Part shown: positions 11,020-25,856 of the stretch, piece after piece
Layout: each line of letters opens with the position of its first letter
How positions within the stretch are numbered: the stretch's first letter is position 1
Assembly (NCBI RefSeq): GCF_000010985.1
Contig: NC_013939.1
Location: forward strand, 587,501-651,500
Length of the DNA: 64,000 nucleotides
Direction of reading: 5' to 3'
DNA from: Deferribacter desulfuricans SSM1
GTDB taxonomy: Bacteria; Chrysiogenota; Deferribacteres; Deferribacterales; Deferribacteraceae
Translations under genes and position numbers: made by a program
The notes under the pieces: generated by a model
The model's database searches: none
Told to the model about the DNA's origin: nothing
Seen by the model: the letters and a program-made list of their open reading frames with translations, nothing else

Positions 11020-12085
11020 ATGTTTCTTCCATAATCTTTTTTAACTCGTTTTTATTCGTTTCTTTTATAAGTTCTTTTGATAAATAACCAAGATTATTGC
11101 ATAAATTACAGCCTGTTCCTTTGCATTCACATTCAATCGGTATGTATCCTTCAAAGTAAAAGTTTTTACTTTCTGGTAAAAAATCTGGAGTAGTGATTAT
11201 ATTTATATTGTTTAAATAATCTGTCTGTTCAAATATGTAATGAGTGTAACCAGGAATAACAGTATTAGTATGGAGTATATCTGAATTTTCACTGTATACA
11301 TTTGTTTTAAAGGAGAATGAGTTAGTTTGAAATACTAAGCCGAATTTAGAAGTAACAAAAACATTATTTTTAAAATTTTTGTAAAAACTACTCTTTTTTA
11401 CAGGATAAATCGAGATGAATAAATCCTCTTTTTCGGTTGTTTTAAGATAAAAAAAGTCAAAATCCAGTTTAGATAAAACTTTAGTTAGCTCATTAAAAAA
11501 ATCACTATTATATTCTATTTCAGAGTATTTTTTCAATATCCCACAACCATATATGTTGGTGATTAAAAGATTAGAATTTTTTATAAAGTCAACTCTATAG
11601 AAAAATGAGTTGTCTAATTTTTCAAACAAATCACTTATATAGGTTAAAAGATCCATAGAGTAGTTGAATATTTCATTTAGAAATTTTTCAATTTTTTTCC
11701 CACTTGTTACAGAAAGTGAAACTTTTTTACCTGTCAGCTTAGTAAGATCTTTGATTAAATCTTCTCTAAAAGGGTCATCTGTTACAATTTTAATTTCGCT
11801 TTCAGTTTCATATAAAGGCAAGAAGTTATATTTTTTTAGGAGATGAGATGGGAAAGATTTTATGTAGTTAATATCTAAATCTTTTTCATTGAGGATAACA
11901 AAAGGGATATCAAGTTGCTTACTTAAAACATATTCTATATCATCATTTGATATTTTCCCAAGCTCAATTAAGGCTTCTCCTAATCTTAACCCTCGTTTTT
12001 TTTGATACTCCAAACCTTCTTGCAAATCTTTTTCAGTAATCATTTTGTATTCTAACAAAAGTTCGCCAATATTTTTTCTACTCAT
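11006..12085 (-). CDS. MshEN-domain protein with degenerate GspE/PilB-like C-terminus
   Basis: The first 150 residues are a type II secretion/pilus ATPase N-terminal (MshEN/T2SSE_N) domain: IGELLLEYKMITEKDLQEGLEYQ, GEALIELGKISNDDIEYVLSKQLDIPF, FLPLYETESEIKIVTDDP. No Walker A, Asp box or Walker B follows. The C-terminus has a Cys cluster ECECKGTGCNLCNNLGY that resembles the zinc motif of GspE/PilB. It therefore looks like a PilB relative that lost its motor core, perhaps a c-di-GMP-responsive partner for PilT, though this is inference. ATG 12085 overlaps the upstream TPR gene's stop; the longer frame to 12124 lies inside that gene. 359 aa. Confidence 0.7.
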   Translation of the reverse strand: MSRKNIGELLLEYKMITEKDLQEGLEYQKKRGLRLGEALIELGKISNDDIEYVLSKQLDIPFVILNEKDLDINYIKSFPSHLLKKYNFLPLYETESEIKIVTDDPFREDLIKDLTKLTGKKVSLSVTSGKKIEKFLNEIFNYSMDLLTYISDLFEKLDNSFFYRVDFIKNSNLLITNIYGCGILKKYSEIEYNSDFFNELTKVLSKLDFDFFYLKTTEKEDLFISIYPVKKSSFYKNFKNNVFVTSKFGLVFQTNSFSFKTNVYSENSDILHTNTVIPGYTHYIFEQTDYLNNINIITTPDFLPESKNFYFEGYIPIECECKGTGCNLCNNLGYLSKELIKETNKNELKKIMEETYGKD

Positions 12086-13085
12086 CAAAACCATCCAACT
12101 CTTCTGAAATTTTATCCAGCTCAATATTGTAAAAAAGATTTAGCTCAGATAGGAAAGTTTCTACTGTTTCTGAGAACTCTGTTTCGATGTTTAAAACATG
12201 TTTTTTTAGTCTTGACTTATTAAGGTTATAAAAATTTGCAATTGTATTTAATGTAAATTCTGCATCTGAAATACTCAAAGTAGTGAAATATTCGCATATT
12301 GCAGCAAGCAATACACTATCTTTTATATTTAAATTGTTATCATGGAATATTTTTATTAAATCTAAACCTTTTTCGATTTCAAAATTGAAGTAACCTCTTA
12401 TACACATATTTTCTGTAAGCAAAGTAGCAGCTTTTACAAAAACTAGTTTGTTTAGGTTTTTTAGAAAGGGGATAAGTACCTCTTTTTTTATATTTTTCAT
12501 ATTTACTTCAATTTCAGTAAATTCTTCATATGCATCAAAAAGGATAAAGCTATCAGGATATTTGCTTAACCCTGTAAGTAATATTTTTTTTGCTTCTTCA
12601 AAATTTTTATTTAAAACGTAACCGTAGGAATAATCTACGTATGTTTGCTCATCCACGTTATCTTTTGTGGTAATTTTATCAAAAATGATTTTTGAGTGTG
12701 TGATATCACCTATAAAAGAATAGCATGAAACTAAAGTTTTAAGAATCTCTTTCCTCCCTTTTAAAAAGGGGATGTATTTTTTTAGCAAGTTTATTGCATC
12801 ATAAAATTTATTTTCAATAATTAAGATATTACTGAGATTTAGAAGGGAATTTATATTTTGTATGTTATACTTTAGGGAAAGGTTGTAATATTTTTTTGCT
12901 AAAGAGTAGTTTCCTGTTTGAAATTTTAAAACTCCCAAAAGTTCATACACTTTAGATTTTTCTTTGTGTGGAAGGTATTCATCTTTTAAATGATTTTTTA
13001 AAATTTTTTCTGCTACTTGATAATTTTCTTCTTGTAAAAGGTTGTTAAATTTTTGAGTATAAAAATACTTAACTTTTGTGTTCAT
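12078..13085 (-). CDS. TPR-repeat protein
   Basis: Soluble 335-residue helical protein with at least three tetratricopeptide-like units in the first 130 residues (KVYELLGVLKFQTGNYSLAKKYYNLSLKYN, NSLLNLSNILIIENKFYDAINLLKKYI, and a third). The rest is degenerate helices. There is no signal peptide. It is the first gene of the operon that continues with the MshEN protein, PilT and RqcH, and its stop overlaps the next start. A scaffold role in pilus regulation is plausible from context only. Confidence 0.7.
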   Translation of the reverse strand: MNTKVKYFYTQKFNNLLQEENYQVAEKILKNHLKDEYLPHKEKSKVYELLGVLKFQTGNYSLAKKYYNLSLKYNIQNINSLLNLSNILIIENKFYDAINLLKKYIPFLKGRKEILKTLVSCYSFIGDITHSKIIFDKITTKDNVDEQTYVDYSYGYVLNKNFEEAKKILLTGLSKYPDSFILFDAYEEFTEIEVNMKNIKKEVLIPFLKNLNKLVFVKAATLLTENMCIRGYFNFEIEKGLDLIKIFHDNNLNIKDSVLLAAICEYFTTLSISDAEFTLNTIANFYNLNKSRLKKHVLNIETEFSETVETFLSELNLFYNIELDKISEELDGFDE

Positions 13086-13170
13086 TTTCTTCCTTTAAAT
13101 ATTTTTAAATTAGATTTTATTATAAACTAACTTGTAATAAAGTCCACATTTTCTTTTATCGATATAATCT

Positions 13171-13386
13171 GAGGTTTTTGCACAATGGATCAATTTTTTG
13201 ATATCAACATAGTTTTGAAATTGCTTTACACGCCCTTGCGAACGCAATGAAGCAATCTCCTACTTCAAAGTGTTATTTGAGATTACTTCATCAGCTTGCG
13301 CTTCCTAGCGATAACTGATTAGCTGTCATAGCAGGTGTCTACTAATCAATCTGAGGTGCTTAAGCAATTATTTATTGTGCAACACC
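13171..13386. repeat. REP/MITE-like repeat, copy 2 (bounded by terminal motifs)
   Basis: GAGGTTTTTGCACAAT at 13171-13186 faces ATTGTGCAACACC at 13374-13386, giving imperfect terminal inverted repeats. Inside are diverged copies of the GATTGCTTCG/GCAATGAC hairpin arms (13218-13255 and 13279-13345). It lies in the 590-base gap between the divergent TPR and holin-4 genes. No gene is seen in it. Confidence 0.75.
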
Positions 13387-13522
13387 ATTTATGAAATAGA
13401 AGTTATCGATACTGATGTTATAATAAGAGTGATTGCTTATTCAATATGAATCAAATGTTTGTTAATATTTATCTAAATAAAATAGAGCTTAATTATCATT
13501 ATGTTGTAAGATTAATTTTTTC

Positions 13523-13550
13523 TTGACAGAGTCTGTTTTTTATATATATT
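13523..13550 (+). promoter_or_regulatory. Sigma-70-type promoter for candidate small RNA
   Basis: TTGACA at 13523-13528 and TATATT at 13545-13550, with a 16-base spacer. It is followed a few bases later by two hairpins and a T-run, and no start codon with a ribosome site lies in between. That points to a short non-coding transcript. Confidence 0.6.
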
Positions 13551-13556
13551 GAATAT

Positions 13557-13627
13557 TGATATTTTAAGGACCCTCCTCCCCCCTCCTTAAAATATATAAT
13601 TTGCCAGCCTCAAAGGCTGGCTTTTTT
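13557..13627 (+). ncRNA. Candidate ~70-nt small RNA with CCTCCTCCC loop
   Basis: The predicted transcript starts about 7 bases after a sigma-70-like -10 and ends at a strong intrinsic terminator. The first hairpin has a perfect 12-bp stem (ATATTTTAAGGA 13559-13570 with TCCTTAAAATAT 13584-13595). Its 13-base loop CCCTCCTCCCCCC exposes an anti-Shine-Dalgarno sequence. The CCUCCUCCC motif in a loop is the hallmark of the alphaproteobacterial cuckoo/CcsR and alpha-r14 RNAs, which pair with ribosome-binding sites or sequester regulators. No open reading frame of note lies within it. Orientation is set by promoter and terminator on the plus strand. Expression and relatedness to those families are unproven. 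Confidence 0.55.
13603..13627 (+). terminator. Intrinsic terminator of the candidate small RNA
   Basis: An 8-bp perfect GC-rich stem (GCCAGCCT / AGGCTGGC) with a 3-base loop, followed by six T residues at 13622-13627. Confidence 0.85.
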
Positions 13628-13674
13628 AATATCTTTTATTTGCTATTTATAAAAATTTATTTATATTATATTGC

Positions 13675-14052
13675 ATGTACAAAAGTAATTTTTTTATTTA
13701 TAGGATATGTGTGAATACTATAGCTTTAGGTTTTGCTGCTTTATTGTTTAAACATATCGTTGTAAATTCATTTTTGTCTTTATTTTTGGGAGCGATTTTA
13801 CTCACATTGTTGAACTTTGTTTTGAAGCCAATTTTACTTATTTTAACATTGCCTATACAGATTTTATCTTTGGGATTTTTTTATATAATTACAAATGCTT
13901 TTATTTTAAAACTTACTTCAGTTATAACAGATGGTTTCTATATTGATGGATTTTGGGCAGCAGTTGGAGGAAGTATTGTTATAGGTATAGTAAATTTTAT
14001 TTTTGATTTATTTGCTACAAATGCAGAAATAAGGTTTTTCGAATGGAAATAA
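13675..14052 (+). CDS. Phage holin family 4 superfamily (YvlD-like) membrane protein
   Basis: Small inner-membrane protein of 125 aa with four hydrophobic segments. The conserved family core is ALLFKHIVVNSFLSLFLGAILLTLLNFVLKPILLILTLPIQILSLGFFYIITNAFIL...GFWAAVGGSIVIGIVNF. Such proteins are widespread in bacterial chromosomes. The holin label is a fold similarity and not evidence of a prophage. No clear ribosome site precedes ATG 13675. A GTG at 13711 with AGGA upstream is an alternative start. The next gene overlaps its end by 10 bases. Confidence 0.8.
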   Translation: MYKSNFFIYRICVNTIALGFAALLFKHIVVNSFLSLFLGAILLTLLNFVLKPILLILTLPIQILSLGFFYIITNAFILKLTSVITDGFYIDGFWAAVGGSIVIGIVNFIFDLFATNAEIRFFEWK

Positions 14053-14552
14053 GGGAGATTCAAGAAGATTTAGAAAAGTTTGAAAATTTGATTAAAATGT
14101 ATAATTTTGAGTTTAACAACTATTTTCTTGGTAATATGAAGTTCCCTCCTGTAGTTAGAGAAAGAGAAATTAATAAGATAATAAAAAAATACAATATTAA
14201 TCAAATTACCAATCCAACTTTAAGGTTTAAGTTTAACAATTTAGTGGCAAGGTTTTTAACATATAGAGAGCGTTGGAATAAAAAAATGATGGAGTTGGAG
14301 GGGGTCAAAAAATCTCCAGTAAAAACCTTGGGTTATCTGAATATTGAATCAGATAATGGTTATAATGTTGATATTGATAATAGAATTGAAAAAGAGCTTG
14401 AAAAACTTCCAGATTCTTATAATAAAGAAGGGATTCGTAAGATGATTATGAAAAAAATAGAGACGATGAAAAAGAACGGTGTGAAAGATATAGATTTAAA
14501 GATTGAACATGTAAATGGTAAACCAAAATTATTAATAAGGCAGAAGAAATGA
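14043..14552 (+). CDS. Conserved protein resembling MXAN_5187 C-terminal domain
   Basis: Soluble charged helical protein of 169 aa. The first 95 residues (YNFEFNNYFLGNMKFPPVVREREINKIIKKY, then RFKFNNLVARFLTYRERWNKKMME) recall the MXAN_5187 C-terminal domain known from Myxococcus-type bacteria. I base this on pattern memory only. The last 60 residues are a Lys-rich helix and strand without a recognised domain. It sits in a tight overlapping string (holin-4, this, DUF1820, LptF, LptG). The function is unknown; co-transcription with LPS transport genes is the only hint. Confidence 0.6.
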   Translation: MEIREIQEDLEKFENLIKMYNFEFNNYFLGNMKFPPVVREREINKIIKKYNINQITNPTLRFKFNNLVARFLTYRERWNKKMMELEGVKKSPVKTLGYLNIESDNGYNVDIDNRIEKELEKLPDSYNKEGIRKMIMKKIETMKKNGVKDIDLKIEHVNGKPKLLIRQKK

Positions 14553-25699: not shown

Positions 25700-25856
25700 C
25701 CGTCATTGCGAGCTTTAGCGAAGCAATTTTCTGCTTTAATGTCTTATTTGAGATTGCTTCGTCGCATTTGCTCCTCGCAATGACAGGGAAATTGGTCATT
25801 GCGAACGTTAGTGAAGCAATCTGATGTGTTTAAGCAATTATTAACGTGCAACATAA
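25700..25856. repeat. REP/MITE-like repeats, copy 6 (compound)
   Basis: An arm CGTCATTGCGAGC...GAAGCAATTTT (25700-25729) is followed by a full hairpin, GATTGCTTCGTCGC ... GTGAAGCAATC (25752-25822). The outer motif AACGTGCAACAT follows at 25843-25854. It abuts the type-B element, so 25577-25856 is a nest of repeats. Non-coding. Confidence 0.8.

Follow-up and report, generated by a model that had tools for sequence, protein, structure and literature searches.

A predicted small RNA with a conserved anti-Shine-Dalgarno-like seed in Deferribacter desulfuricans and its relatives in the Deferribacterales

Deferribacter desulfuricans is a thermophilic, deep-branching bacterium of the phylum Deferribacterota, and its genome is composed of two contigs of 2,234,389 and 308,544 bp (2.54 Mb). 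The stretch of 64,000 nucleotides that was analysed, hereafter the window, contains a short intergenic locus at positions 13523-13627 that lies between a minus-strand gene for a TPR protein (12078-13085) and a gene for a Phage_holin_4_2 protein (13675-14052, PF04020). At base resolution, the locus presents every element that the initial annotation had described, namely a TTGACA-N16-TATATT promoter, a perfect 12-bp stem, a 13-nt loop, and an 8-bp terminator stem followed by T6. The promoter agrees with the consensus at 11 of 12 positions and is the top promoter-like site within 13000-14100, a region in which the terminator is the sole terminator-like site. The features are collected in Table 1, where the RNA of the window is referred to as type I. 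From the promoter, transcription is predicted to start at about 13557; the 5' boundary of the RNA was inferred in this way and the 3' boundary from the terminator. Just 5' of the promoter, at 13165-13387, there is a dispersed repeat of approximately 220 bp, of which incomplete and diverged copies recur at 25720-25853 and in many of the other genome stretches that were sampled.

Table 1. Features of the type I locus and of another predicted RNA that shares its seed
Feature	Position	Strand	Basis
-35 box TTGACA	13523..13528	+	consensus scan; exact TTGACA 5' of 18/18 homologues
-10 box TATATT, spacer 16 nt	13545..13550	+	consensus scan, homologue promoters
Predicted small RNA (type I), ~71 nt	13557..13627	+	sequence, fold, homologues
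5' arm of 12-bp AU-rich stem, 3' end SD-like AAGGA; own genus only	13559..13570	+	fold, alignments
Conserved core ACCCTCCTCCCCCCTCCTTAAAATATAT	13570..13597	+	two alignments, covariance-model matches
Exposed C-rich loop CCCTCCTCCCCCC, 13 nt, putative anti-Shine-Dalgarno seed	13571..13583	+	fold
3' arm of stem TCCTTAAAATAT; sequence kept though pairing partner is not	13584..13595	+	fold, alignment
Intrinsic terminator, 8-bp stem GCCAGCCT/AGGCTGGC (13603-13621) and T6 (13622-13627)	13603..13627	+	fold, terminator scan
Type II RNA, terminator hairpin with CCCUCCUCCCC in apical loop	C1:843311-843372 (L094 1501-1562), outside window		

The two arms of the first stem (13559-13570 and 13584-13595) pair without a mismatch, and the predicted fold of type I has an energy of -25.2 kcal/mol against a mean of -11.0 for shuffled sequences (z = -5.8), with none of 200 shuffles being as good. 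The loop has an unpaired probability of approximately 1 in the fold calculation. When the calculation was performed at 60-65 C, the loop was open and the stem mostly paired. A second CUCC motif is present in the Deferribacter stem, where it is hidden by pairing with the SD-like AAGGA.

Relatives of type I were sought with a nucleotide search of 60 relatives, followed by a covariance model made from the core and the terminator. The initial annotation had staked its proposal on conservation in relatives, and the loop sequence is indeed kept in homologues from 18 genomes that represent six families of the order Deferribacterales (families and genera are given as f1, g6 and so forth where they must be told apart). 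The nucleotide matches reach well beyond the genus and, in other families, cover nothing but the RNA (query positions 44-118). With the covariance model, 14 genomes from five families (f1, f2, f3, f5, f8) were identified at E<=4e-5, and four variants from genera g6 and g13 of family f6 at E values of 2e-4 to 7e-4; type I was absent or unrecognised in eight of the 12 f6 genomes and in f4 and f7. The core and a promoter are present in all 18 homologues, as is a terminator with a T-run except in f5, and nearly all terminate in a GC-rich terminator. The promoters match the consensus at 9-11 of 12 positions, always with an exact TTGACA and mostly with a TATATT-like box.

Within the homologues, sequence is kept only in the C-rich core, which includes UUAAAAUAUAU, and in the terminator. 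The 28-nt core is nearly invariant in f1, f2, f3 and f8, and its unpaired sequence ACCCUCCUCCCCCCUCCUUAAAAUAUAU is the conserved part of the RNA. The 5' part differs between families. The 12-bp stem is restricted to the genus of the window (two genomes); elsewhere, the 5' part forms a small hairpin of its own (f8), pairs weakly (f2, f3) or forms a 5-bp AAGGA/TCCTT stem (g6 of f6), and the f5 transcript would begin just 5' of the seed. The seed is largely unpaired in all families. Since the seed is conserved and largely unpaired while the 5' part is exchanged, it is the C-rich sequence, rather than the stem, that is under selection. Thus, the stem-loop display that was proposed initially applies to the genus of the window, but it is not conserved in the other families, which have no 12-bp stem; the more general proposal of an exposed anti-Shine-Dalgarno-like seed of the ar14/cuckoo kind, outside the Alphaproteobacteria and in an unrelated phylum, is borne out by a sequence that is both conserved and unpaired in the fold. 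In the terminator stem, one of the five pairs counted varies, with a change on both sides (G-C to A-U).

A pattern built from the seed (CCCTCCTCCC-N0-3-CTCCTT-W6) was searched against 84,980 species for homologues outside of the order. Of the 15 matches, only four were family-like (43-83 bits), all of them from the Deferribacterales, and the remainder look like chance matches. Viral homologues were considered and set aside: 12 matches on viral contigs score at most 22 bits, eight of these score alike, and the two that were read are the same coding-like stretch. A small peptide was also rejected, because the C-run differs in length between homologues, by 1 and 3 nt, and no start codon occurs in the core.

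With respect to INDEPENDENCE from neighbours, the genes that flank type I are common mainly within families. The TPR gene on the 5' side is common to f1 and f3, and a comparison of neighbours did not find the downstream gene of the window beside type I in other families. From its conservation in relatives and its own promoter and terminator, the independent small-RNA gene of the initial annotation is upheld, and it is very probable that the locus is a genuine gene of this kind.

A search of the genome for further copies of the seed, as had been suggested at the outset, was productive. The 10-mer CCCTCCTCCC occurs exactly twice in 2.54 Mb, each time as the loop of a hairpin that is followed by a T-run. 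The second copy (C1:843336) occupies the apical loop of a T6-terminated hairpin and defines a predicted RNA, type II, whose scaffold is unrelated to that of type I. One strong copy of type II per genome was identified in 26 of the order's 46 genomes (f1, f2, f3, f5, f6, f8); none was found in f4, f7 or the phylum's five other genomes. In the outer stem, three pairs vary on both sides and remain paired in nearly all of 16 sequences, with a covariation score of 0.227 that falls to 0.084 or less when the alignment is slid. The loop CCCTCCTCCCC is retained, except that it is degraded in three of four Calditerrivibrio genomes. A promoter-like site is present just 5' of type II in many of the genomes, though not all. 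In D. desulfuricans, type II lies directly 5' of a gene for a hemerythrin-like protein with the Shine-Dalgarno sequence GGGAG. In both f5 genomes (L034 and L035), the two RNAs converge and lie approximately 100 bp apart; they are not neighbours in the genome of the window.

The 16S rRNA carries an anti-Shine-Dalgarno sequence with which the seed may be compared. GGGGAGGAGGG, a sequence of the Shine-Dalgarno type, is the complement of the seed. Taken together, the observations are probably best explained by an independently transcribed, trans-acting small RNA of approximately 70 nt whose C-rich stretch pairs with Shine-Dalgarno sequences and blocks ribosome entry. According to this model, a sigma-70-type promoter would drive type I and the intrinsic terminator would end it. 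The unpaired CCCUCCUCCCC(CC)CUCC would copy the anti-Shine-Dalgarno logic of 16S rRNA and base-pair with G-rich Shine-Dalgarno sequences in a group of mRNAs, and the pairing would stop ribosomes from entering, resulting in repression in trans. By analogy with NfeR1 (PMC10746234) and the C-rich small RNAs of Bacillus subtilis (PMC8216469), for which this mode of action was demonstrated, such repression is expected to proceed through blocked ribosome binding. In Deferribacter, the 12-bp AU stem would present the seed in a loop, and other families would display the same sequence without the stem. Type II, with the seed in the loop of its terminator hairpin, probably acts on an overlapping set of targets. 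Hfq probably assists type I; a canonical Hfq of 83 aa is encoded at C1:1083412. A 174-aa reading frame with two tandem Hfq domains is also found at C1:152371-152802 (L163).

Potential ribosome-binding sites for the seed exist in the genome, as GGGAGG-N3-10-ATG occurs 55 times versus 24 times for the reversed control. A genome search with GGGGAGGAGGG returned four matches with a single mismatch, none of which is at a start codon. The best predicted duplexes with Shine-Dalgarno sequences are short stretches, found among others at the starts of genes that, from a reading of their sequences alone, we take to be signal peptidase-like, NuoK-like and pyruvate kinase-like. No functional theme was seen among the best Shine-Dalgarno candidates of the GGGAGG-ATG search.

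The same short single-stranded motif on two unrelated scaffolds suits the ligand site of a protein as well as it does a seed, and the C-rich loops of types I and II may be considered as decoys that titrate an RNA-binding protein, either a CcaF1-like factor or Rho, with no pairing to mRNA. This explanation is considered unlikely. The CcaF1 domain, DUF1127, is missing from the genome, which also speaks against the protein-sponge option of the initial annotation. Rho does prefer unstructured C-rich RNA; however, a primary Rho site normally spans much more than 13 nt. A decoy would furthermore leave the exact complementarity to Shine-Dalgarno sequences unexplained, as well as the retention in the type I core of UUAAAAUAUAU, which lengthens the antisense past AAGGAGG. 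To a similar degree, it is improbable that the RNA has a general effect on translation, occupying Shine-Dalgarno sequences in competition with 16S rRNA and thereby tuning strong-SD messages without having specific targets. A seed that is nearly pure anti-SD, and a search in which extended matches at start regions were not seen, are what such a competitor would lead one to expect, but extreme abundance would be needed, and NfeR1, which has a similar seed, acts on specific targets such as ntrB (PMC10746234).

Type I ends 48 nt 5' of the 13675 gene on the same strand, and this gene order is retained in the other species of the genus, as would be expected if it acted in cis on the Phage_holin_4_2 gene, as a leader or an attenuator. 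It is very improbable that type I serves this role: the leader, which the initial annotation had named as the competing explanation, is rejected because the terminator closes the RNA before the gene begins and because synteny is not kept, other families having the RNA with a different gene downstream. It is scarcely credible that the locus is no RNA gene but an ordinary intergenic terminator whose C-rich hairpin arose by chance, for even though many intergenic terminators have a similar look, the conservation in relatives makes a chance origin untenable and refutes this reading unless it is the DNA that is constrained, and the core is nearly identical across families, the promoter is present in all 18 genomes, and the fold has the z-score given above.

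With a trans-acting small RNA that pairs with Shine-Dalgarno sequences as the preferred reading, a further proposal may be made, although it is tentative and on balance doubtful. Types I and II may form an ancestral two-RNA system, in which unrelated scaffolds, one being just a terminator hairpin, carry an identical anti-SD 11-mer, regulate strong-SD mRNAs in thermophiles jointly by mimicking the ribosome, and can replace each other upon decay. The idea of a mutual takeover stems from the degraded type II loop in Calditerrivibrio and from the reduction or loss of type I in much of f6.

No small RNAs described for the Deferribacterota were found in Rfam 15 or in the literature searched. Types I and II are apparently two uncatalogued RNA families of a known kind, the C-rich anti-Shine-Dalgarno small RNA. 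Among Rfam families, type I is matched best by ar14 (RF02344), one of the two that the initial annotation had named, with loop aligned on loop; however, the score of 24.4 bits is far below the gathering threshold of 58.8. At gathering threshold, a scan of the whole window gave no match, and a homologue from f3 has no match to Rfam at E<=1. Membership in ar14, or in any other Rfam family, was rejected on the basis of this low score and these negative searches.

The ar14 family is defined by three hairpins, each exposing CCUCCUCCC, and its member NfeR1 pairs with ntrB and ABC transporter mRNAs where translation initiates and thereby represses them (PMC10746234). Type I resembles ar14/NfeR1 in having the unpaired CCUCCUCCC anti-SD motif, here in the loop at 13571-13583, a sigma-70-like promoter, and a terminator hairpin. 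In contrast to ar14, it has a single motif loop, and its terminator hairpin is without the motif; NfeR1 is also longer (123 nt versus approximately 71 nt), the stems differ, and the phylum is unrelated. A C-rich loop of the CCUCCUCCC type is likewise shared with cuckoo/CcsR1-4 of Rhodobacter. RNase E releases the CcsR RNAs from a transcript that also carries the gene for a DUF1127 protein (PMC10253847), whereas type I has its own predicted promoter in all 18 genomes, and a search of the genome of the window for DUF1127 (PF06568) produced no match, with the E. coli positive control being matched. Since the ar14 score is below threshold and DUF1127 is absent, the resemblance to ar14 and cuckoo is one of analogy and not of membership.

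In the Bacillota, RoxS/RsaE, FsrA and CsfG also have C-rich regions that pair with mRNAs, with several such RNAs in a genome; B. subtilis has three small RNAs that share these regions (PMC8216469). They differ from the RNAs described here in scaffold and phylum, and there is no Rfam match to them. RepG of Helicobacter pylori pairs through the C/U-rich loop of its terminator hairpin (PMC8295292), an architecture that type II shares in having its seed in the same place. RepG differs in having a second stem-loop and a homopolymeric G-repeat as its target, type II being a lone hairpin with CCCUCCUCCCC, and the C-rich loop of type I sits in the first hairpin and not in the terminator. Judged from its promoter, its terminator and its conserved unpaired C-rich core, the predicted type I RNA fits the kind of small RNA with a C-rich region to which RoxS, FsrA, RsaE and RepG belong. 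As far as tested, ar14, cuckoo/CcsR and RepG are convergent analogues and not relatives. If this is true, the anti-SD seed has made a further independent appearance after those in the Alphaproteobacteria (ar14/cuckoo), the Bacillota (RoxS/FsrA/RsaE) and H. pylori (RepG), and types I and II provide a handle on the repeated bacterial invention of ribosome-mimicking regulators, with exact sequences for testing in a thermophile.
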